Positions 1,734 to 14,099 of a DNA stretch of 64,000 bases are shown here, in pieces. The notes below the pieces were generated by a model, which ran no database searches, was not told the origin of the DNA, and was given only the letters and a program-made list of their open reading frames with translations. Source of the DNA: Sphingobacterium mizutaii (GTDB taxonomy: Bacteria; Bacteroidota; Bacteroidia; Sphingobacteriales; Sphingobacteriaceae); NCBI RefSeq assembly GCF_900187125.1, contig NZ_LT906468.1, positions 868,001-932,000 of the forward strand. Reading direction: 5' to 3'. Numbering within the stretch: position 1 is the first letter of the stretch; each line of letters begins with the position of its first letter. Position numbers and translations under genes: made by a program.

Positions 1734-4415
1734 TTATTTTTTGTTATAAACTTCACTTTTTTCATTTCCTCCAGACATCAGGTAGGCCATGATGTCTTTA
1801 ACTTCATCAGGACTCATCACATTCAATGTTCCCGGAGGCATGATCGATACCTCAGAACGGTTCATGGATTTCACTGAGTTTTTCGGAATGGTCTTGGTCA
1901 CTTGTGGTGCGTAAGGGTTTTGAGAAATCACATAATTGTGCTCATCCTCACTCATCAAACGGCCGAGGACGTTGGTTCCGTCTTTCAGGTTGAATACTTT
2001 GGATTCATATTGATCAGAAATCACTTTACTTGGTTCAATGATAGCCTCTAGCATATCGCGTTTAGAGAAACGGGTACCTAATTGCGTTAAATCAGGACCA
2101 ACAGAACCACCTTCGCCTTTGACAGTATGGCAAGAACCACATTTAACAGCAAGGAATAACTCTCTACCGCGTTTGAAATTGCGGACACCTGTGTTTTCAT
2201 CTACAACTTTCAGCGCCGAATCAACTTCCCATGCTCTTCCTGGACCTTCCGGACCTTCTACTTTCTCAGCAAGTCTGTTTCCTTGTGCATTGATCAAAGA
2301 GTCTCCCGACATCTTACCGTACATAGCAAGTTGATCTTGCGGTACGTTTTTCAATGCCATTTTACGAGCATTGTCAATAAAACCGATGTAGCTATTACCG
2401 CCTTTAAAACCGAAGGCTTTGTAGAACCAATTGAAATATTGCTCACGTAATTCCGGAGTCCAACCAACACTGGTATTGCTTAATGCAGTAGCCATGAAGA
2501 TCTGTTGTGCTGGAGGGATATTGGCCAACATATCAGCAATGTCCAATCCGTACTGTGGATTCCTCAAGATTAAATCTGAAGAATTCATAAAGTTGGTTTG
2601 GGTGGTGTCGTCTTTCGCATTGGCTAGGATGTCAAGCGTCTTCTTAACAGCTGGTTCGCTGTTTAGAGCAAGTAAGATTTTAGACAATTCCCTATTGGTA
2701 TAGTTCGATTTGGCAGGGTAGAAAGGTTCTAACCTTTGTGCTAAAGCAGCAGCATCCGCATCATTCACTTTACCCATACGCGCAATGACAATTTCGTAAA
2801 CTCTCAACAGGTTTTCCAACATCTTCGGCGTAATCTTTTCTACAGGAATGGTAGCCAATTTTTTCATGATCATAGGCTGTAGGGAAGGATCGGCTACATG
2901 TGCCATCGCTACCATCGCTTCAGTCAATCGAACAACATTGCGTTCTGCGAAAACCTTGTCTTTCCAAGTGTCAAATGGCTGATGTTCTACAGCAACTCGA
3001 GCGGCATAGCGAATGAATCTATCCTCATGGCCTAAATATTCCCAAACTTTATCAACAGTTCCTGGAGCCGATGGTCGGTGGTATTGTTCGATCTCTCTAC
3101 GTAATTTCACTAGCTCATTAGGCTCAGATATTTTAACCTCGTTATTGATCTTATCACGGTCTTTATGATAAACACGGTAAAGATCAGATTCCAATCGTCT
3201 ACCACCAGTCAAGAAGTAAAGGTTTCCATCCGGACCAATCGTTCCATCGGTCAATGGTAGTGGAGAACCCGAAATAAATTCTTCTGCCTTAGCGGTATAG
3301 CTTGCTCCATGAGGTTGCAATTGGATAGCATAGATGATACCGAAGCTCCAATCGAATGCGAATAAGCTGTTTCTATATTTATCTGGGAACTTAGCTTTGC
3401 TAGGGTTGATAAAGTTAGTAGGAGATCCTTGGCCGATATTTAAGGTTGCAGGAAGGTTGTCCAAGAACCTTTCATCCCATTTTGCATCCCCTTTTCTCCA
3501 GCCGTATTCACCGCCACTAGGAACGTGAAGGATCCTTGTCGGGCGGTACCATGGCATCCCGAAATCCCATTCCATATCGGAGTCGTAGGTAAAAAGCTCA
3601 CCTTCATTATTGAAGGCTAAGTCAAATCCATTACGCATTCCCGATGCGATAAGATCCCAAGATTTACCTTCTGAATCCGTTTTTGCAATCCATCCACCGT
3701 TCAGGTGAGAGTCAGCATCGTGGCCATGGGTATCTAAAATGTAAGGAATCAAATTGTCCACCTTATCATTCGGTAAAGAACGATAATTGTCCATTTTAGG
3801 GATTTTCGTGAAGTTACCAGCGATAACATAGATCATAGAATCTGGTCCTAATACGATGCTGTGCGGTCCATGTTCACCCTCTCCCTCCAATTCCATCAGC
3901 TGGGTGATTTTATCTAATTTATCATCATTGTTGGTGTCTTGAAGCCTATACAGACCGGAACCTTTTGAAAGATTCTCATTCGGACGGTGGTTAATCATAA
4001 CATATAAGCTGTTATAGGCCCATAACAAACCTTGAGCAAAGCCCATTCCTACTTTATTGCTGGTCGTATCCTTTGGATCGCGGCCCTCAATTGGAAAGTC
4101 CAATGCCTCAATTTTTGGCTTAACAGTTGAATCTGAACCAAGAGGAGGCAATTCAACGCGGAATAGACCACCAAATTGATCCGATGTGATCATCCGACCT
4201 TTGTCATCAAAAGTCATGGAAACCCAAGATCCTTTTTTGTCATCAGAAGGACTATAGATATGCTCGATTTCAAACCCATCGGGCAATGTTATTTTATCTG
4301 TTTTTGGATTAGGTTCTTTAACCACCTCCTTTTCCTTCTCCTGCTTACACGCTCCTGCAAAAATGAACAGGAACAAGGCAAACAAATACAATTGTGCTCT
4401 TTTCGTTTTTATCAT
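1734..4415 (-). CDS. PVC-type membrane-bound dehydrogenase with HEAT region and cytochrome c domain (lipoprotein)
   Basis: This 893-residue lipoprotein has a signal peptide with lipobox FAGAC (Cys23), so it should sit on the periplasmic side of a membrane. Residues about 45-415 form a six-bladed propeller like soluble sugar dehydrogenases. Residues about 440-720 are helical and HEAT-like. The C-terminus carries one c-type heme site, CGSCH at 759-763, with a probable distal Met859 in the IMPPGT segment. The family (planctomycete-type membrane-bound dehydrogenase plus heme-binding domains) is thought to oxidise sugars and pass electrons to cytochromes. It lies 42 bases after susD and 8 bases before the DUF4432 gene. 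The heme would be attached by the Ccm system, part of which lies at 38257-41167. Substrate unknown. Confidence 0.85.
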   Translation of the reverse strand: MIKTKRAQLYLFALFLFIFAGACKQEKEKEVVKEPNPKTDKITLPDGFEIEHIYSPSDDKKGSWVSMTFDDKGRMITSDQFGGLFRVELPPLGSDSTVKPKIEALDFPIEGRDPKDTTSNKVGMGFAQGLLWAYNSLYVMINHRPNENLSKGSGLYRLQDTNNDDKLDKITQLMELEGEGEHGPHSIVLGPDSMIYVIAGNFTKIPKMDNYRSLPNDKVDNLIPYILDTHGHDADSHLNGGWIAKTDSEGKSWDLIASGMRNGFDLAFNNEGELFTYDSDMEWDFGMPWYRPTRILHVPSGGEYGWRKGDAKWDERFLDNLPATLNIGQGSPTNFINPSKAKFPDKYRNSLFAFDWSFGIIYAIQLQPHGASYTAKAEEFISGSPLPLTDGTIGPDGNLYFLTGGRRLESDLYRVYHKDRDKINNEVKISEPNELVKLRREIEQYHRPSAPGTVDKVWEYLGHEDRFIRYAARVAVEHQPFDTWKDKVFAERNVVRLTEAMVAMAHVADPSLQPMIMKKLATIPVEKITPKMLENLLRVYEIVIARMGKVNDADAAALAQRLEPFYPAKSNYTNRELSKILLALNSEPAVKKTLDILANAKDDTTQTNFMNSSDLILRNPQYGLDIADMLANIPPAQQIFMATALSNTSVGWTPELREQYFNWFYKAFGFKGGNSYIGFIDNARKMALKNVPQDQLAMYGKMSGDSLINAQGNRLAEKVEGPEGPGRAWEVDSALKVVDENTGVRNFKRGRELFLAVKCGSCHTVKGEGGSVGPDLTQLGTRFSKRDMLEAIIEPSKVISDQYESKVFNLKDGTNVLGRLMSEDEHNYVISQNPYAPQVTKTIPKNSVKSMNRSEVSIMPPGTLNVMSPDEVKDIMAYLMSGGNEKSEVYNKK

Positions 4416-4457: not shown

Positions 4458-5942
4458 CTACCAACCTTGATTTTGTTCAATTCCATTAATCTGAATCTCA
4501 CGCTGAGGGATCGGGAATAATAGTTTGAACGGTTGAATATTATATGAAGCACTGCTTAATCGAGTCAATCTTTTCTTCTCCTCGGCACCATGGGCAGTCA
4601 TCACCTCTATGGCTTTTCCGGTTCTCAAAAGTTGGTACCACCTATGGCTTTCAAAGGCTACTTCGACTCTTATTTCATTAGCGATGGCCGTTCTCAAAGC
4701 ATCTTTGGATAAACCAGATACTGGTTTCAAGCCGGCTCTTTTTCTTACGATATTCAGGTTTGCCAAAGGATCTCCTGAGCCGACCTCATTCTGTGCTTCC
4801 GCCAACATCAAAAGAACATGGGCATAGCGGTAGATTGGCCAGTTTTCATTCGATCTACCATCCTCAATATAAGGTGCATGATAAAACTTCTTGATAAACG
4901 GCATGCTTCCTCCAAATGCTTTAGACTCCTGAAATGCGGCATTTGAAGGGTCATTGAACAATTGGATGGATTTATCTCTACGTAAATCTCCCTGCTCATA
5001 GGCATTATAAATGCTCGGTGTTGGAATATTACTTCCGCCTAGGTTCCCTGAAAAACCGACCAATTGCATTTTTGCATTTCTTGGCCCGAACATGTAAATG
5101 AAGTTACTGTTCTCTCCCTCTACCGATTGATCAAACTGCACCTCAAAAACTGACTCTGCATTATTCTTGGAATTAGGACTAAAACAAGATGCATAATCTG
5201 GCATCAAGGAATAGCCTAATTTGGTTACTTCCTGAAAATTGGTTACTGCTTCAGCGTATTGCTTCCTAGTTAGGTAGACTTCTCCTAATAATGTGTATGC
5301 TGCACCCTTGGTCGCCCGACCTACACTTCCTTTATCATAGCTAGGAAGTAAGTTTGCAATGGCATCCTTAGCATCTTGGATAATGACTGCATAAACTTCG
5401 TCAACTGTTCCTTTCTTTCCATCTGAGAAGGCGTCCGAAGGATTCGCAACCTCTTTGGTCAGCAAAGGAACTTCTCCAAATAGTCTAACTAAATGAAAGT
5501 ACGAAAATGCTCTCAAAAACTTCGCCTCTCCCAGGTATTGTAACTTTAATTTTTCATCCGCGAACTCGACTTGATCAATCCTACTGATGATGGCGTTGGC
5601 TTGTTGAATGCCAACATACAGGTTTACCCAGGTGGTATTCACGTAGTTATTGGACGAGGTAATCAAGAATTCATCGATTTCCTCCCGCTGCTGTGCTCCA
5701 CGGTCCGTTTCATCATATTGATAATTGGTATTGTCAGCACGCATTTCAGTCATTGAAAAAAAATCACTGGTATACAATACTTGCAATCTGCTATATGCAC
5801 CATTTACTGCACGAAGGATCTGCCCTTCATTTTCGTAATAGTTCTCTCCACTTGAAAAGGTATAGGGTTTTACATCCAATAATTTATTGCAGGAGCTCAT
5901 GCTCAATAACCCTAGACCTAATAGAATATATCTTAGTTTCAT
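4458..5942 (-). CDS. RagB/SusD family nutrient-binding outer-membrane lipoprotein
   Basis: This 494-residue protein starts with a lipoprotein signal whose acylated cysteine is Cys18 (SMSSC). The middle contains the TPR-like helices and the AKFLRAFSYFHLVRLFG segment near residue 140 that marks SusD proteins, and the C-terminus ends with the usual SusD pattern FPIPQREIQIN...QNQGW. SusD lids bind glycans at the cell surface and hand them to the SusC channel. It begins 10 bases after the susC stop, so the pair is cotranscribed. Neighbouring rhamnosidase and mutarotase genes suggest a rhamnose-containing glycan or glycoside as ligand (inference). Confidence 0.95.
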   Translation of the reverse strand: MKLRYILLGLGLLSMSSCNKLLDVKPYTFSSGENYYENEGQILRAVNGAYSRLQVLYTSDFFSMTEMRADNTNYQYDETDRGAQQREEIDEFLITSSNNYVNTTWVNLYVGIQQANAIISRIDQVEFADEKLKLQYLGEAKFLRAFSYFHLVRLFGEVPLLTKEVANPSDAFSDGKKGTVDEVYAVIIQDAKDAIANLLPSYDKGSVGRATKGAAYTLLGEVYLTRKQYAEAVTNFQEVTKLGYSLMPDYASCFSPNSKNNAESVFEVQFDQSVEGENSNFIYMFGPRNAKMQLVGFSGNLGGSNIPTPSIYNAYEQGDLRRDKSIQLFNDPSNAAFQESKAFGGSMPFIKKFYHAPYIEDGRSNENWPIYRYAHVLLMLAEAQNEVGSGDPLANLNIVRKRAGLKPVSGLSKDALRTAIANEIRVEVAFESHRWYQLLRTGKAIEVMTAHGAEEKKRLTRLSSASYNIQPFKLLFPIPQREIQINGIEQNQGW

Positions 5943-5952
5943 AATCCTTGTC

Positions 5953-8900
5953 TTAAAAATTGAAATTCAACCCTAATGTGTAAATCTTTGGAACCGGATA
6001 CGCCGAATAGTCGATACCTGGCACCAATGGACTTATATCACCTCTATTTATGTTGGTACCTTCTGGATTTCCATCGTAATCAGTGAATAAGAATGGATTC
6101 TGAAGGTTGGCATAAATTCTAAGGTTGTTTAACACTCCACCAATGCTCTTTGGTAGGGAATAACCGATAGTGATGTTCTTGATCCATAGGTAATCTGTCT
6201 TTTGGACAAATAGGGAATGGGTATCGCGATACATTACACGGCCTCTACCAGTACCATTGGTTGTTGGCACCAAACCACTACCCGGATTAGATTCTGATCT
6301 CCAACGATCAGCAACCTCTTTCCTCACATTAAATACACCGTCGATGTTGTCTGTATAGAACCTGGTAGCATGCAACATTTCTTGTCCCATGGAACCCACC
6401 ATCATCACTCGGAAATCAAATGCTTTATAAGTCAAGGTATTGGTCATACCAAAATTGAAGTCAGGATAAGGGTTGCCAATTACTGCAAAGTCATCGTTTG
6501 GTGTAATCTGACCATCTCCATTTACATCCTTCATTTTTAAGTTCCCAGGGATAGCTCCCGGGAAAGCTGGATTATTGTCTACATCTGCTTGGTTTTGATA
6601 AATTCCTTCTACCACATAACCGATGATCATTCCGACAGGTTGACCAATCTCGGTGATATTGGTAAAGTTTCCTTCCGAACTCTGTCCTGAGAAGATTGGG
6701 TCAGTACTGCGTCCCAATGCAATGACTTTGTTGCGGTTGAATGAAATATTGAAGTCGGTATTCCAGGTAAAGTTTTCACGGGCAATATTTGCTGAACTAA
6801 TTGAAAACTCAAAACCCTTGTTCTCGACATCTCCACGATTTTCCACCACTGATCCAAATCCTGATGAATTAGGGATCGGGGTATTCAATAATAGATCTAA
6901 AGTATTACGTTTATAATAGTTGGCAGTTAAGGTCAAACGGTTATTCCATGTGGTGAAATCTAAACCAATGTTCAACTCTTTCATCCTTTCCCAACCTAAG
7001 AAGCTGTTCCCTAGGCTGTTCATCGTACGGCCTGGTGCAAGACCTCCTCCAAATATGTAATTCGCTGCACCAATACTACTTAAAGATGCATAGTTGGCAA
7101 TATTGAAGTTTCCAGAACGACCATAAGAAGCTCTCAATTTCAATTCATTGATCCACTCTTTATCTTTCAGGAAATCCTCTTCAGATAAGCGCCATCCGAC
7201 GGCAACTGAAGGGAATGAACCCCAGCGATTGTCTTTACCAAAGCGGGAAGAGCCATCAGCACGATAGGATCCAGTCAAGATATAGCGATCTAAATAGGAG
7301 TAGTTAACCCTTGCTAGGTAAGAGATCAATCCCCAATCTTCAATACCTGTACCGCCGGTAATCCTAGCTGCTGCATTCAAGGTCTGAATATCATCATCCG
7401 GGAATTGGGCACCATTGAAGTTTGCATTCTTATTCTTTTGCATTTGGATGGAATAACCAGCCAATGCCGAAATAGAATGTCCATTATCGGAGGAGTAATC
7501 GTAGTTTAAGGTGTTTTCGTTTGCCCAGTTAATATATTGGCCTCTGCCATAGCTTCCGCTAGGAATTGAAGCACCCGGAGCATTTTGATTAGGAATAGTA
7601 GATGGCCTAAAAGTCTCGCCACTCTCATCTTGATAGTCCACATTGAAGGTCGTTTTGAACTTCAAGTTTTCTAAAAAGCTATATTCTGCGTAGGTACTCA
7701 TCAAGAGTTTTAACTTCGAGCTCTTGTTTGTCCTTTGATTTAGGAACATTACTGGATTGGGATTTCCAAAGGTTCCTGCAGATTGAATATAGGGAACATA
7801 GGAACCATCATCATTATAGATTTTGGCAACAGGAGTAGTGATTTCGAAAAATTCATCACGGCCCTGACCGTTAATTCCCCCTTCAATATAAGATAAGGTA
7901 GGGTTGATGTTCATCCCTAATTTTAATTTCTTGACAAAATTCCCTTCCACATTCGCACGGATTGAGAAACGATCAAAGCCAGAATTTAACATCACTCCCT
8001 TTTGGTTTAAATAACCAGCAGAAACGAATGAACGAACACTCTCATTACCACCAGAGAAATTCACGTTGATATCCGACATCGGAGCAATTCTGGTCACGGC
8101 ATCATACCAATCCACACCTTCACCAAGGGCTGCCGGGTTTCTATATTCTTCAGGGATATCATTGATAGTTGGTTCCCTTCCTTCTTCGAACCTGATTCTA
8201 TCCTCGATAGCTTCTTTTCTGAATTGCGCAAATTCTGCGGCATTCATCAAGTTGGGTCTTCCTTTCTGAGGGACCTGCTGTAAACCTGAACTTGCCGCTA
8301 CATCAATTCTCATCTTGCCATCTGTACCACGTTTGGTATTGATCAAGATTACCCCATTGGAACCTCTTGAACCATAAATAGCCGTTGCAGAAGCATCCTT
8401 CAGCACGGTCATCGACTCGATATCATTTGGGTTGATGGTTGCCAAGGGATTTCCCCTTTCACTGGAAGAGCCCGGTACCGGGAATCCATCAATAACATAC
8501 AAAGGCTGGCTACCAGCACCTATTGCGCCAATTCCCCTGATTTGAATCCTAGGACCTCCACCTGGAGTACCATTGGAATTACTTACCTGTACACCTGATA
8601 ATTGGCCTGTTAAGGCTTGGTCAGGACTCGCAATCGCCTGTCCTTTTACATTTTTCATGGACACAGCGGCAATCGAACCAGTAACATCCTTTTTCTGTTG
8701 GCTACCATAACCAACTACAACGACTTCCGTAATGTCTTCACTGCTGCTATCTAAAGAAATGTTTTGAGTACCAGCTGCATTGACTACAATCTCTTTCGAA
8801 GTGAAACCGATATTGTCAAAGGTCAAAGTTTGCCCTTTGTTCAATTCGATTTCATATTTACCGTTTTCATCAGTCGCAGTCGCAGAATTGGTGCCTTTTA

Positions 8901-9228
8901 CTCGAACAGAAACACCCGCAATAGGCACCCCATTGGCATCACTAACGGTACCTGTGACCTTGATTTTCTCTTGGCCAAACAAGTTTAAGTTGCTGATGCC
9001 CGTGTTATGTTCCACGGAGATGTTGTGTGTTTCTTTATTCATAGTAGAATAATTGTTGACCTCGGAATGGCCAGCCTGCGATAAAATTAAAGCAGGAAAG
9101 ATCAACGATAATTGCAGGAATCTTTTCTTGGGTTCCGTTCCGAATGTGAACCCCAAAACCTTCCTAAATGTTACAGTAGGTGCAATTAATCGATGGTTTT
9201 TCGTTTTGTTTAATTGGTCATATTGCAT
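5953..9228 (-). CDS. SusC/RagA family TonB-linked outer-membrane transporter
   Basis: This 1091-residue protein has, after an unusually long N-terminus, a hydrophobic signal core at about residues 37-52 preceded by KKR. A carboxypeptidase-regulatory-like beta domain follows at about 90-170, then a plug with VVVGYGSQQKKDVTGSIAAVS near 175-195 and SRGSNGVILINTKRG near 285, and a long beta barrel ending in the aromatic-rich TLGLNFNF. There is no STN domain, so control by an anti-sigma factor is unlikely. It is the first gene of the minus-strand operon and imports glycan fragments using TonB energy. The ATG at 9226-9228 is the only good start before the signal peptide. Its upstream region carries a predicted antisense RNA, described separately. 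Confidence 0.95.
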   Translation of the reverse strand: MQYDQLNKTKNHRLIAPTVTFRKVLGFTFGTEPKKRFLQLSLIFPALILSQAGHSEVNNYSTMNKETHNISVEHNTGISNLNLFGQEKIKVTGTVSDANGVPIAGVSVRVKGTNSATATDENGKYEIELNKGQTLTFDNIGFTSKEIVVNAAGTQNISLDSSSEDITEVVVVGYGSQQKKDVTGSIAAVSMKNVKGQAIASPDQALTGQLSGVQVSNSNGTPGGGPRIQIRGIGAIGAGSQPLYVIDGFPVPGSSSERGNPLATINPNDIESMTVLKDASATAIYGSRGSNGVILINTKRGTDGKMRIDVAASSGLQQVPQKGRPNLMNAAEFAQFRKEAIEDRIRFEEGREPTINDIPEEYRNPAALGEGVDWYDAVTRIAPMSDINVNFSGGNESVRSFVSAGYLNQKGVMLNSGFDRFSIRANVEGNFVKKLKLGMNINPTLSYIEGGINGQGRDEFFEITTPVAKIYNDDGSYVPYIQSAGTFGNPNPVMFLNQRTNKSSKLKLLMSTYAEYSFLENLKFKTTFNVDYQDESGETFRPSTIPNQNAPGASIPSGSYGRGQYINWANENTLNYDYSSDNGHSISALAGYSIQMQKNKNANFNGAQFPDDDIQTLNAAARITGGTGIEDWGLISYLARVNYSYLDRYILTGSYRADGSSRFGKDNRWGSFPSVAVGWRLSEEDFLKDKEWINELKLRASYGRSGNFNIANYASLSSIGAANYIFGGGLAPGRTMNSLGNSFLGWERMKELNIGLDFTTWNNRLTLTANYYKRNTLDLLLNTPIPNSSGFGSVVENRGDVENKGFEFSISSANIARENFTWNTDFNISFNRNKVIALGRSTDPIFSGQSSEGNFTNITEIGQPVGMIIGYVVEGIYQNQADVDNNPAFPGAIPGNLKMKDVNGDGQITPNDDFAVIGNPYPDFNFGMTNTLTYKAFDFRVMMVGSMGQEMLHATRFYTDNIDGVFNVRKEVADRWRSESNPGSGLVPTTNGTGRGRVMYRDTHSLFVQKTDYLWIKNITIGYSLPKSIGGVLNNLRIYANLQNPFLFTDYDGNPEGTNINRGDISPLVPGIDYSAYPVPKIYTLGLNFNF

Positions 9229-9235
9229 ACCTTTG
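9205..9235 (+). promoter_or_regulatory. Bacteroidota-type promoter for a predicted antisense RNA
   Basis: TTTG at 9205-9208 and TACCTTTG at 9228-9235 are separated by 19 bases. Both elements match the published Bacteroidota primary sigma consensus TTTG-N19/20-TAnnTTTG exactly. The promoter points away from susC, with transcription predicted to start near 9241. The next plus-strand gene begins only at 9842, beyond a terminator at 9306-9338. Confidence 0.65.
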
Positions 9236-9243
9236 CAAAGTTA
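9236..9243 (-). promoter_or_regulatory. Candidate -7 element TAACTTTG immediately before susC
   Basis: On the minus strand TAACTTTG matches TAnnTTTG and ends 7 bases before the susC ATG, which would give an almost leaderless mRNA. It shares the CTTTGCAAAG palindrome with the plus-strand -7 element. No TTG lies at the usual -33 distance. It may be a chance product of the palindrome. Confidence 0.3.
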
Positions 9244-9338
9244 AATGGTTAAACAATAAAGAGTTTCGACCCTCTTGGTTAGTTTAAAAAGACCATTGAT
9301 ATTGAACCGATAGTGCGGGAACACTGTCGGTTTTTTTT
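9241..9338 (+). ncRNA. Predicted antisense small RNA opposite the susC leader
   Basis: A consensus plus-strand promoter ends at 9235 and a one-way intrinsic terminator ends at 9338, which defines a transcript of about 97 nt. Between them TTAAAC (9249-9254) can pair with GTTTAA (9282-9287), enclosing AAGAG (9259-9263) paired with CTCTT (9272-9276); the terminator stem forms the third hairpin. No start codon with a useful reading frame is seen. The RNA would be complementary to any susC leader that starts above 9338. In Bacteroides, cis-antisense RNAs such as DonS repress susC-type operons from the same kind of position. That this RNA exists and does the same here is inference. Confidence 0.55.
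9306..9338 (+). terminator. Intrinsic terminator of the predicted antisense RNA
   Basis: Stem ACCGATAGTG (9306-9315) pairs with CACTGTCGGT (9322-9331) through ten pairs, one of them G-U, around the loop CGGGAA. Eight T residues close the structure on the plus strand only. Read on the minus strand there is no T tract, so it does not serve the susC operon. No known plus-strand gene precedes it. Confidence 0.75.
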
Positions 9339-9490
9339 ATTAGTCTTTTTCAATGTTATTGTTCAATAACAGATCATCCTTTTTCTAAGTAATACATGTT
9401 TTCGTTTTCATTTGGTTTATTGGCAGCCTAGGTTGAAGAGCTACCGGAATTAGTTAAAAGTTATAGGTTGCCAATACTTTGGCTGTAGTT

Positions 9491-9498
9491 CAAATATA
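9491..9498 (-). promoter_or_regulatory. Candidate distal -7 element for susC
   Basis: On the minus strand this reads TATATTTG, an exact TAnnTTTG match. Transcription from here would start near 9485 and give a leader of about 255 nt that crosses the whole predicted antisense RNA. There is no TTTG at the -33 distance, which is common for regulated promoters but lowers confidence. Confidence 0.35.
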
Positions 9499-9841
9499 GT
9501 TATCCACTTTAGGTTGAGCATCCTGCACCGTCCTGTAGAAGGCTACACCAGTATATAGGACAGTCCTTGATAGGTTAGTAATTATATAGACAAAATATAA
9601 TCTTTTGATTGGCTTCATGCTAATAAGGTAATGGTCCTATATTACTTTGAACTTTACTTTTTATTAAATAATCCCCTCCAACCTGAAAGAACAGGATAGT
9701 CCTTCCTTTCGCCTTTTCTATCTTTAATCAATTTTCAGAATTATAGCCTATTTAAAACTATTGCAAAAAAAGGATGAAAATGGAATGGTAATTTCCGAAA
9801 TTGAAGTACCTAACAAACTATAAATTATTAGATCATCGCGC

Positions 9842-12691
9842 ATGGAATCCTTAAAAATTATATCCTGTATCTGTGTAAGCTTGTTGTTGAACTTTGCGGC
9901 TTCTTTTGCGAATATCCAACCTAAATACCTGCGTACAGAATATAAACTGAATCCTTATGTCGAGGAAAGCAAGCCTCGCCTGAGTTGGGAATTAGAAGGA
10001 AAAGGATTCAATCAATCCCAATTGGCTTACCAAGTGATGGTGGCAAGCTCTGAAATGCTGCTTAAAAAGAACCAAGCAGACCTTTGGGATAGCAAAAAGG
10101 TCAGTAGCAACCAAACTAACCAAATTGAATATGCTGGAAAGTTACTGAAGCCTGGTCAGCGGGTCTATTGGAAGGTGCGTTCTTGGGATGAAAAGGACAA
10201 GGTAGGAAAGTGGTCTGATGTGCAGTATTGGGAACTTGCGAAACCTAATCCCGACCATTGGAAAGCAAAGTGGATTGGTGTTGATTTAAATCACCTAGCA
10301 CCAAAAGCTGAATATCATTTACCGCCTTCGCCTTATTTGCGCAAGGAAGTGATCCTAAATAAAAAGATAAAATCAGCACGCCTGTACATCAGCTCCCTTG
10401 GCCTCCATAATTTTTATATCAATGGAGAAAAGATTGGTCGCGATTATTTTGCGTCAGGATGGACAGACTACCATAAGCGGGTTTATTACAATGTCTATGA
10501 CGTCAGCAATCAACTGAAGAATGGAGAAAATGCTTTTGGAGCTATTTTATCCAATGGTTGGTATGCCGGTTATTTGGGCTATGCATTATTGGTGGGTTCC
10601 CCACAAGTGAATCAATTCTATGGGAAATTTCCCTTACTAAAGGCTGAGATCGATGTAACCTATGAAGATGGAAGCCAAGAACAGATTGTTACCGATTCAA
10701 GTTGGAAGTACAGTACTGGCGCCATAATGGAATCAGATTTCTTGGAAGGAGAAAAGCATGACGCCCGAAAGGAGCCGCAAGGATGGAATAGGGTAGGATT
10801 TGATGAAAGCTCTTGGACGACTATCCAAGAATTTCCAGATCAAGAGGGACAAGCGCTAGAAATCTATCCCAGCAATCCAGTTCGGGTACTGCAGGAATTA
10901 TCTGCCAAATCAATCAAGAAAATTGATGGAGGTAAATATATCGTGGATTTTGGACAGAATTTCGCTGGTAATATCCGCCTAAAGATCAATGGCGCAAAGG
11001 GAGATTCCTTGGTCTTTCGGTATGGCGAAATGCTGTTTCCTGATGGCAAGCTGATGACCGACAACCTCCGAAAAGCGAGGGCTACGGATACCTATATCCT
11101 GAATGGTTCAAAAAATGAGGAATGGAGCCCTAGCTTCACCTTTCATGGTTTTCAGTTCGTAGAAGTTACCGGTCTAAAAGAAGAACCTAGCCTCGATTTC
11201 TTGACAGGCTTGGTCATGAGTTCCGATCTCGACCAAGTCGGAAGCTTTGAATCCGACAATAAGATGCTGAACCAGTTATATAGCAATATACTTTGGACGC
11301 AGAAGGCTAACTATCTCGATATCCCTACCGACTGCCCACAACGTGATGAACGATTGGGCTGGACTGGAGACGCCCAGGTGTATATGCGTTCGGCGATCTT
11401 CAATGCTGATGTTGCTGCTTTCCACAAGAAATGGATCAAAGACCTGAATGATTCCCAATGGCCGAATGGAGCCTATCCGATCTATGCCCCAATGCCTGTA
11501 AATGCTGAGGGGGTAGCAGCGATCAGAGCATCCGATTCTTTCTCGCCGGGATGGTCCGAAGCCGGGATTATCTGTACTTATGAATATTTCAAAGCCTATA
11601 ATGATCTTCGAATTGTAAGGGAATCGCTGCCTTTTATGAACAAATTTATGGCTTTCCTGAAGTCACGGACCAAGGGACATGTACTTCAGGAGGGGTCTTT
11701 TGAAGATGTAAACCCAAAAGGCGGATTCGGAGATTGGCTATCCGTTGGTGAAAAGACTAGCCCGGATTTATTGGCGACAACCTATTATTTCTATTGCAAT
11801 AAATTGATGGCTGAAATGTGTCGCGCTATCGGGGATTTGCAAGTAGCGAATGATTACGAAAAAGAATCCTTTGCGGTCAAGATGGGATTCAAGCAACATT
11901 ATATGGACGATCAAGGTAAACTGAAAACCAATGCCGCATTTTATGGAAAGGGGGAAGGCTATGTTGAAGGGCAGAATGGCTTTTCTGGGCATACCCAAAC
12001 GGCTTATGCCAATGCAATCTATTCGGGGATCCTGGATGATGAGGATGAAGCCATAGCAGGAAAATATCTGCGCGAATTATTGGAAAGCAATGGTAATAAA
12101 TTGAGCACAGGTTTCTTGGGTTTCAAGCCGCTTTTGCCAGCATTGACGGCTTCGGGGTCTGCTGATAAAGCGTATATGCTGATCCAAAGTACGGAATACC
12201 CATCCTTAGGCTATGAGGTTGTTAACGGTGCCACTTCCATTTGGGAACGATGGGATAGCTATACCAAAGACAAGGGATTTGTCCATAATGCAGCTATGAA
12301 TTCCTTCTCGCATTATGCGTTCGGTTCGGTCAATGAATGGATGTTTGAATATATGTTGGGAATCCGACTAAAAGAAAATGGTTTCCAAGAGATCTATATA
12401 CAACCTGAAATAGGAGATTTCGGAATCAATAACGTGGCTGGGTCTTATCGTTCCATCGCCGGTAACATCAAAAGTGCTTGGAGCAAATCCGAAAAGGAGG
12501 TCATTCAGGAAATCCAGATCCCAGTCAATGTAATTGCCTATTGCAGTATCAATACCGATGATCTGACTGCTGTAAAAATAAATGGAGAACCCATCGATAG
12601 GAACAATCTTGTCCGTTCCTTAAAGAAACTGGACGGCAAAATCTTGGTTGAACTTGGCTCGGGTAAGTATACCATCAGAACAGACCTTTAA
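9842..12691 (+). CDS. GH78 alpha-L-rhamnosidase
   Basis: This 949-residue protein has a probable signal peptide (hydrophobic to about Ala23), placing it in the periplasm or outside. The N-terminal half has the rhamnosidase beta domains (a fibronectin-like region, then the lectin-like domain with YINGEKIG near 195-205). The (alpha/alpha)6 catalytic barrel contains DCPQRDERLGWTGD beginning at Asp497, with the family acid Glu503, Trp507 and Asp510. It also has IWERWDS with the likely base Glu802, and a substrate His near 824. These match the residues known from GH78 structures. It releases terminal L-rhamnose from glycans or glycosides. It heads the plus-strand operon, 13 bases before the mutarotase gene. 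Confidence 0.95.
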   Translation: MESLKIISCICVSLLLNFAASFANIQPKYLRTEYKLNPYVEESKPRLSWELEGKGFNQSQLAYQVMVASSEMLLKKNQADLWDSKKVSSNQTNQIEYAGKLLKPGQRVYWKVRSWDEKDKVGKWSDVQYWELAKPNPDHWKAKWIGVDLNHLAPKAEYHLPPSPYLRKEVILNKKIKSARLYISSLGLHNFYINGEKIGRDYFASGWTDYHKRVYYNVYDVSNQLKNGENAFGAILSNGWYAGYLGYALLVGSPQVNQFYGKFPLLKAEIDVTYEDGSQEQIVTDSSWKYSTGAIMESDFLEGEKHDARKEPQGWNRVGFDESSWTTIQEFPDQEGQALEIYPSNPVRVLQELSAKSIKKIDGGKYIVDFGQNFAGNIRLKINGAKGDSLVFRYGEMLFPDGKLMTDNLRKARATDTYILNGSKNEEWSPSFTFHGFQFVEVTGLKEEPSLDFLTGLVMSSDLDQVGSFESDNKMLNQLYSNILWTQKANYLDIPTDCPQRDERLGWTGDAQVYMRSAIFNADVAAFHKKWIKDLNDSQWPNGAYPIYAPMPVNAEGVAAIRASDSFSPGWSEAGIICTYEYFKAYNDLRIVRESLPFMNKFMAFLKSRTKGHVLQEGSFEDVNPKGGFGDWLSVGEKTSPDLLATTYYFYCNKLMAEMCRAIGDLQVANDYEKESFAVKMGFKQHYMDDQGKLKTNAAFYGKGEGYVEGQNGFSGHTQTAYANAIYSGILDDEDEAIAGKYLRELLESNGNKLSTGFLGFKPLLPALTASGSADKAYMLIQSTEYPSLGYEVVNGATSIWERWDSYTKDKGFVHNAAMNSFSHYAFGSVNEWMFEYMLGIRLKENGFQEIYIQPEIGDFGINNVAGSYRSIAGNIKSAWSKSEKEVIQEIQIPVNVIAYCSINTDDLTAVKINGEPIDRNNLVRSLKKLDGKILVELGSGKYTIRTDL

Positions 12692-12704
12692 TTCTCAAAA
12701 GAAC

Positions 12705-13019
12705 ATGAAACAGCTAGCATTTAAAATGAAACTTCTGCCGGGCAATGAAACTGAATACCTGCGCCGGCATCAGGAAATATGGCCTAAGTTGGCTAAGCTC
12801 TTAAAAGAAAATGAGATCTCTGATTATTCCATTTTCCTTGATGAGGATACCTTAGATCTCTTTGCGGTGCAGACCTTGACGGAAGGATTTGATGAACAAA
12901 AATTAAAGACAGATCCCATAATGAAGGAATGGTGGGCTTATATGAAGGATCTAATGGAAACCAATGCCGATAATTCGCCAAAAACTTTTCCCTTAAAACA
13001 AGTATTTTACTTACCTTAG
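12705..13019 (+). CDS. rhaM: L-rhamnose mutarotase
   Basis: This 104-residue protein matches the size of E. coli RhaM/YiiL. It interconverts alpha and beta anomers of L-rhamnose in the cytoplasm, which speeds entry into isomerisation. The N-terminal signature EYLRRHQEIWP contains the active-site pair Tyr18 and His22, followed by the IFLDEDTLDLFAV strand and the C-terminal WWAYMKDLM segment. I place the start at the ATG at 12705; a longer frame exists upstream but overlaps the rhamnosidase gene. It sits 13 bases after that gene and 39 before the regulator gene. Its presence is the strongest evidence that free L-rhamnose is a product of this locus. Confidence 0.93.
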   Translation: MKQLAFKMKLLPGNETEYLRRHQEIWPKLAKLLKENEISDYSIFLDEDTLDLFAVQTLTEGFDEQKLKTDPIMKEWWAYMKDLMETNADNSPKTFPLKQVFYLP

Positions 13020-13058: not shown

Positions 13059-14099
13059 ATGACTTCCAAGGTAACTGATTTCTTAAAGACCATTCAGATA
13101 AGTGACTTTTCTGCTACCCCAAAATACAAGCAGTTAGCCAGTGCCATTATCGATGCGGTCAAGAATGGTGCATTGGAAAAAGAGGATATGTTGCCTTCCA
13201 TCAATGAGCTTTCTGTGTATGTGGATATCTCCAGGGATACCGTCGAAAAAGCCTATAAGTTCCTCAAAAATGCTGAAGTCATTGCCTCCATTCCCGGTAA
13301 GGGATATTATATAGCCACTACTGACGTGAAGCAGAGGCAAAAGATTGCAATCCTTCTGAATAAACTCAGCGCTCACAAAAAGTTGGTCTATGATTCCTTT
13401 GCAAGAGAATTAGAGGATGATGCAGCGCTCGATCTTTTCGTGTACAACTCAGATATCACCTATCTGCGGACCCTTTTAGGAGGCCTGACTAAGACCTATG
13501 ATTATTATGTCCTTTTTCCACATTTTAAGGAAGGAAGAGATCAAGCCCCCGATATTATTAATAAATTGATTCCACGTGAAAAACTGATCTTATTGGGTAA
13601 GTACATCGATGATATACAAGGTGATTTCGCTGCCGTATATGAGAATTATGAAAAGGATATCTATGGCGCCCTAGAAGAAGCCTTACCATCCTTGAGTAAG
13701 TACCATACCTTGAACCTGATCTTTCCGGATAATAGCGATTATCCCAAAGCGATTATCAAAGGCTTCTATAAATTTGCCCAACAATATGCTTTCAACCATT
13801 CCTTAGTGAGTGAATTGGAAAAGGAAAAAATTGAATTGGGCAGCTGTTATATCAATATCGCCGAAGATGATCTGGTGAAGCTATTGGACAAGATCATCAA
13901 GAAAAACCTAAAGATTGGACAGGATGTCGGCGTTATCTCCTATAATGAAACCCCATTAAAGAAATTCATTCTCAATGGTATCACAACGATATCAACGGAT
14001 TTTGAAATGATGGGTAAAATGGCGGCGGAACTCATCAAGAACAAATCAAAGGATCATGTAGAAGTCCCTTTTTACCTGAATCAAAGGTCATCGATTTAA
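13059..14099 (+). CDS. GntR-family regulator with sugar-binding-protein-like C-terminal domain
   Basis: This 346-residue protein has a GntR winged helix at about residues 15-75 (LPSINELSVYVDISRDTVEKAYKFL appears there in two parts), and a C-terminal region of about 260 residues with the alternating helix-strand pattern of LacI-like periplasmic-binding-protein folds. The combination is typical of Bacteroidota sugar regulators. It lies 39 bases after the mutarotase gene in the same operon, so it most likely senses L-rhamnose or a derivative and controls this locus. The palindromes at 9557 and 9693 are possible targets. Ligand and direction of control are inference. Confidence 0.85.
   Translation: MTSKVTDFLKTIQISDFSATPKYKQLASAIIDAVKNGALEKEDMLPSINELSVYVDISRDTVEKAYKFLKNAEVIASIPGKGYYIATTDVKQRQKIAILLNKLSAHKKLVYDSFARELEDDAALDLFVYNSDITYLRTLLGGLTKTYDYYVLFPHFKEGRDQAPDIINKLIPREKLILLGKYIDDIQGDFAAVYENYEKDIYGALEEALPSLSKYHTLNLIFPDNSDYPKAIIKGFYKFAQQYAFNHSLVSELEKEKIELGSCYINIAEDDLVKLLDKIIKKNLKIGQDVGVISYNETPLKKFILNGITTISTDFEMMGKMAAELIKNKSKDHVEVPFYLNQRSSI

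Follow-up and report, generated by a model that had tools for sequence, protein, structure and literature searches.

A conserved antisense RNA predicted opposite the susC start of a rhamnose-type locus in Sphingobacterium

In this study, we describe a short RNA predicted to face the start of susC in a rhamnose-type locus of Sphingobacterium mizutaii. Because susC genes throughout the Sphingobacteriaceae, and in a few further families of Bacteroidota, show this layout as well, we hold it very probable that the RNA is a genuine regulator of uptake. In the absence of transcript data, the existence of the antisense RNA is strongly supported by sequence comparison, and its transcription is inferred. 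Antisense control of glycan uptake is known mainly from gut Bacteroides. With the signature described here, comprising a -7 box at the start codon, a helix termed P1 and a terminator, such RNAs could be annotated from sequence; each RNA is linked to a defined target, and its role could be tested with a single promoter mutation. All coordinates refer to the window, i.e., the whole analyzed DNA stretch of 64,000 nucleotides.

The gene faced by the antisense RNA, susC (5953-9228, minus strand), encodes a receptor with Plug and CarbopepD_reg_2 domains and without an STN domain. Its side of the locus further comprises susD downstream (4458-5942, minus strand) and genes for a cytochrome c domain protein and a DUF4432 protein. 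The cytochrome c domain is C-terminal, and the corresponding gene (1734-4415, minus strand) lies between the DUF4432 gene and susD. The plus strand carries the divergent alpha-L-rhamnosidase gene (9842-12691), the gene for the L-rhamnose mutarotase RhaM (12648-13019; the listed open reading frame begins at TTG and the true start may be further in) and the gene for a GntR-type regulator (13059-14099), the candidate regulator of the locus. The probable -7 box of susC, TATATTTG (9491-9498, minus strand), lies 37 nt after the start of an operator-like element, CAGGACGGTGCAGGATG (9519-9535, minus strand). A matching element is present in 13 of 13 orthologues, and box and element occur together in 12 of the 13. 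If TATATTTG is indeed the susC promoter, as we predict, the leader measures about 250 nt and the antisense RNA lies opposite its last ~100 nt. Strings related to CAGGACGGTGCAGGATG occur nearer the divergent rhamnosidase gene (AGGACAGTCCTT at 9557-9568 and AGGATAGTCCTT at 9693-9704), and elements of this kind are candidate sites for the GntR-type regulator. An inverted repeat, TATTGGCAGCCTA / TAGGTTGCCAATA (9418-9430 and 9464-9476), near the 5' end of the predicted leader possibly represents a leader hairpin.

The predicted antisense promoter reads TTTG-N19-TACCTTTG on the plus strand (9205-9235). Its -33 box TTTG (9205-9208) is located inside the first susC codons, and its -7 box TACCTTTG (9228-9235) shares its first base with the end of CAT (9226-9228), which is the susC start codon read on the plus strand. 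All elements of the Bacteroidota promoter claimed in the initial annotation are thus present, but its position had to be corrected: instead of lying upstream of susC, it overlaps the start codon and the first codons. The 5' end of the RNA, estimated from the -7 box to within about 3 nt, lies ~12 nt upstream of the start codon, from where the RNA runs away from the gene. With an intrinsic terminator, P3, at 9304-9338 (plus strand), this results in a predicted non-coding RNA of about 98 nt (9241-9338, plus strand), in agreement with the earlier figure of about 97 nt and backed by its folding score, by BLAST conservation up to the terminator and by covariance model matches. P3 consists of a 12-pair stem (9304-9333) with the apical sequence GUG-CGGGAA-CAC, followed by a U tract solely on the plus strand, which bears out the one-way terminator previously placed at 9306-9338; no second terminator-like site was found on either strand of 8500-10500. 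Likewise, no plus-strand open reading frame of at least 80 amino acids covers 9241-9338, in line with the claimed absence of a gene on this strand. The three hairpins proposed earlier are replaced by a different predicted fold, in which a long-range helix, P1, connects 9244-9250 with 9291-9297 (plus strand), just before the terminator. P1 is supported by the fold and by strand-pairing tests across the family. It encloses an inner hairpin, P2 (AAGAG-N8-CTCTT, 9259-9276, plus strand), that is seen in rhamnose-type copies.

Beyond the source genome, BLAST recovers the element in three congeners at 79, 75, and 72% identity, the last copy being a relic, and in two of the three the match ends at the terminator. 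A covariance model trained on three copies yielded 39 matches distributed over 28 of the 94 Sphingobacterium genomes, with S. endophyticum, S. shayense, and S. cellulitidis among the named hosts. Except for two relics, all these matches are antisense to the 5' ends of SusC/TonB receptor genes. Four of the receptor genes concerned gave no BLAST row against the SusC of the window; according to Pfam, G091b and G019c have Plug and CarbopepD_reg_2, and the short piece of G106a has STN. No Pfam domain was found in the 116-residue piece of G106b, the identity of which rests on its N-terminal sequence alone. Conversely, close susC matches were obtained in 17 genomes, 13 with strong RNA matches and one (G102) with a diverged copy. 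The RNA accompanies 14 Sphingobacterium susC orthologues, those whose 5' end can be read and whose N-terminus is related. Among the 17 genomes, G110 is cut by a contig end, and in G100 and G012 neither the protein N-terminus nor the antisense RNA is present. Across susC codons 2-8, located under the promoter, synonymous identity (counted where the amino acid is conserved) amounts to 0.94 compared to 0.45 elsewhere, and none of 758 windows is as high, with the caveat that synonymous conservation near start codons can have translational causes. The prediction therefore withstood the conservation test that had been proposed for it, as orthologues keep the promoter, the terminator and the pairing, with a folding constraint on the plus strand. 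The antisense element is conserved by selection.

G019 and G091 have lost the susC orthologue and retain only decayed relics of the antisense RNA: the box has become TACCCCTT, the terminator stem contains a mismatched position, and no U tract follows it; the residual open reading frames count 50 and 25 codons. The relics of the susC start and the RNA are found at L038:8540-8700 (G019) and in L074 (G091). Such decay is the pattern expected if the putative RNA is kept only alongside its susC. It also bears on the idea that other susC mRNAs are the main targets, reached in trans via the terminator loop or the 5' end of the RNA. FopS sRNAs do repress susC mRNAs in trans, and terminator loops of the GTGCnnGAACAC kind are common to several copies; yet the loop varies across the wider family, and every copy is located at a susC of its own and degenerates when that gene is lost. 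We judge predominant action in trans very unlikely.

A more trivial explanation would be that promoter- and terminator-like strings arose by chance in AT-rich DNA and yield at most noise transcripts. Bacterial antisense transcription is often noise, as cautioned by Ryan et al. (2020), but the conservation, the strand bias, the P1 pairing and the recurrence at susC starts leave this explanation barely tenable. Across 1.24 Mb of the source genome, we looked near gene starts for a TAnnTTTG box with an antisense terminator 55-150 nt further on; only 1 of 893 genes other than TonB receptors had this combination, and a chance origin was rejected on this count. The same search returned 1 of 18 susC genes, namely that of the window. 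Within the source genome alone the enrichment at susC is weak (p = 0.04, 18 susC genes surveyed), hence the case rests on the comparison between genomes. Of 893 ordinary gene starts, only 3 show the sequence CAAAnnTATG, and the -7 box was therefore ruled out as a general translation signal. No Rfam model matches the window at gathering level, although the presence of the FopS model in the Rfam copy used is unverified; three unrelated weak matches in 9190-9380 (E 0.18-0.45) look like chance.

The antisense RNA folds better than 200 of 200 shuffled sequences (z = -3.8), but the minus strand of the same bases folds as well (z = -2.8). The latter, together with the location of the element within the predicted leader, would be compatible with a structured leader of the susC mRNA on the sense strand, with the antisense promoter and terminator as its mirror-image appearance. 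Several strand-specific signals contradict this. In 12 orthologues 97% of the cells of terminator P3 are paired, and the terminator core contains G-U pairs and no A-C pairs. Across 84 members, with a strand-neutral stem detection that penalizes both alike, the terminator stem shows 66 G-U against 0 A-C. Since the stem keeps G-U and never A-C, the antisense strand is inferred to be the folding strand. The covariance model itself favors G-U over A-C, which biases the family-wide count; the count in the orthologues, a set also delimited by protein similarity, is less biased by the model. The P1 helix is absent from the covariance model's own structure. Its cognate strands pair at -11.6 kcal/mol versus -7.35 kcal/mol for swapped strands (sd 0.34; 0 of 2000 permutations; 47 non-training members), and at -10.63 versus -5.81 for shuffled, composition-matched strands (82 members). 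On the sense strand this signal is weaker. Structure on the sense-strand leader was ruled out by the G-U versus A-C counts, the P1 strand comparison and the side on which the U tract lies, and is further disfavored by the rarity of CAAAnnTATG at ordinary starts; we consider it highly improbable. Classical covariation in the orthologues alone is modest, with two pairs changed on both sides in the 12 sequences, a result reached by 151 of 500 shuffles. Consequently, the structural case rests on the strand bias and the P1 test. A first RNAalifold consensus was set aside as it paired promoter bases with the RNA.

The arrangement is not restricted to close relatives. A second covariance model (29 copies) picks up weaker family members in 159 of the 300 Sphingobacteriales genomes, representing 14 of 17 genera, and in a few other Bacteroidota families. 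All 49 sampled matches outside the training set are situated at SusC/TonB receptor genes. A class-wide search added 12 of 12 at such genes, but scored only nine candidates per genome, so that absence there means little. In a deeper look at 20 genomes, nine of ten new matches are at receptor genes; match L237 (E 0.031) is not. The samples came mostly from the upper ranking and are therefore not random. We count it as support for the cis-antisense reading that these protein-blind searches land on susC starts. The start codon overlaps the -7 box in 102 of 106 distinct members, and no other feature of the family is as constant as this box. The TTTG at -33, on the other hand, is present in 11 of 12 rhamnose-type copies but in only 3 of the 75 family members located at other SusC genes. 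All 32 receptor genes scanned from other genera encode Plug, CarbopepD_reg_2, and STN domains (Pfam), and the member in the window differs from its relatives by its -33 box, by facing a SusC that lacks STN and by the GntR regulator in its locus. The statistics on STN and on the -33 box by group were chosen after seeing the data and are descriptive. By inspection, four of the seven SusC-size STN genes in the source genome carry a copy (L228, L231, L232, and L233, as opposed to L229, L234, and L236). In G428, from another Bacteroidia family, eight copies are found, all at SusC starts (L208, L217, and L241-L246). It could equally well prove right or wrong that DonS is one member of this family and that the rhamnose-type copies form a branch on susC genes without STN and with a -33 box. 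The initial annotation had proposed an extension of antisense control to a rhamnose locus; this is supported by the sequence comparison, but the scope was understated, as susC genes in many genera are involved. In those parts of the literature available to us, no published description of the start-codon promoter, the 5'-end helix or such breadth was found.

We consider it likely, by analogy, that the RNA represses susC in cis as an antisense transcript, in the manner of Bacteroides DonS, with transcription, pairing, repression and trigger being inferred. The plus-strand RNA of ~98 nt, transcribed from a promoter of its own, would lie opposite the final ~100 nt of the susC leader and pair with this leader. 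Pairing would then block translation initiation beside the start codon and/or expose the mRNA to decay, and SusCD would be held low until the locus regulator activates the susC promoter strongly enough to outpace the antisense RNA. The sequence data show the promoter and terminator sequences, their conservation, the folding strand and the family-wide recurrence at susC starts. Transcription, in-cell pairing, repression and the choice among translation block, decay and transcriptional interference are inferred, and repression of susC rests on analogy only, without expression data. Interference would mean that polymerase from the convergent promoter collides with polymerase in the susC leader and that the RNA is a by-product. 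The promoter does overlap the start codon and face the incoming polymerase, and the constancy of the -7 box would fit as well. Interference alone, however, needs neither P1 pairing nor a shared terminator loop, and both are kept, so that we regard it as rather unlikely.

Among known systems, antisense RNAs have also been reported by transcriptomics in Flavobacterium psychrophilum, another non-Bacteroides member of the phylum; the accessible part of that report describes no family at susC starts (PMC9723704). The FopS sRNAs of B. thetaiotaomicron, described alongside RbpB, repress susC mRNAs beside the start codon when substrate is short; their structure is reported as deposited in Rfam (PMC11697453). 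They form a paralogous family of ~65-70 nt with a shared single-stranded 5' seed (PMC11697453), whereas the RNA of the window lies across from the gene it presumably targets, with a 5' end that the predicted fold places in the P1 helix. The closest parallel is provided by the DonS-type RNAs of Bacteroides (Cao et al., 2016), which the portions of the literature at hand describe as PUL-associated cis-antisense RNAs (PMC7366714, PMC10994844, PMC9723704); 32 PUL-associated antisense RNAs are now listed for B. thetaiotaomicron. According to the available text of Ryan et al. (2020), DonS-type RNAs are 78-128 nt long, divergent to a susC homologue, and lower its expression. The RNA described here is likewise short, cis-antisense and divergent to a susC homologue, with a predicted promoter of its own, and its ~98 nt fall inside the length range given in that text. 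The comparison already drawn in the initial annotation is thus sustained for position, orientation and length, with repression inferred. The host, by contrast, is Sphingobacterium, and the locus is of the rhamnose type and includes a GntR regulator as well as a SusC that lacks the STN domain. Known DonS-type examples belong to mucosa-derived-glycan loci in Bacteroides, a description that a Sphingobacterium locus with a rhamnosidase and a rhamnose mutarotase does not meet. We take the mucosal-glycan locus as a descriptor of the known examples and not of the mechanism, and our claim therefore concerns a DonS-like mode of action and not identity with DonS.
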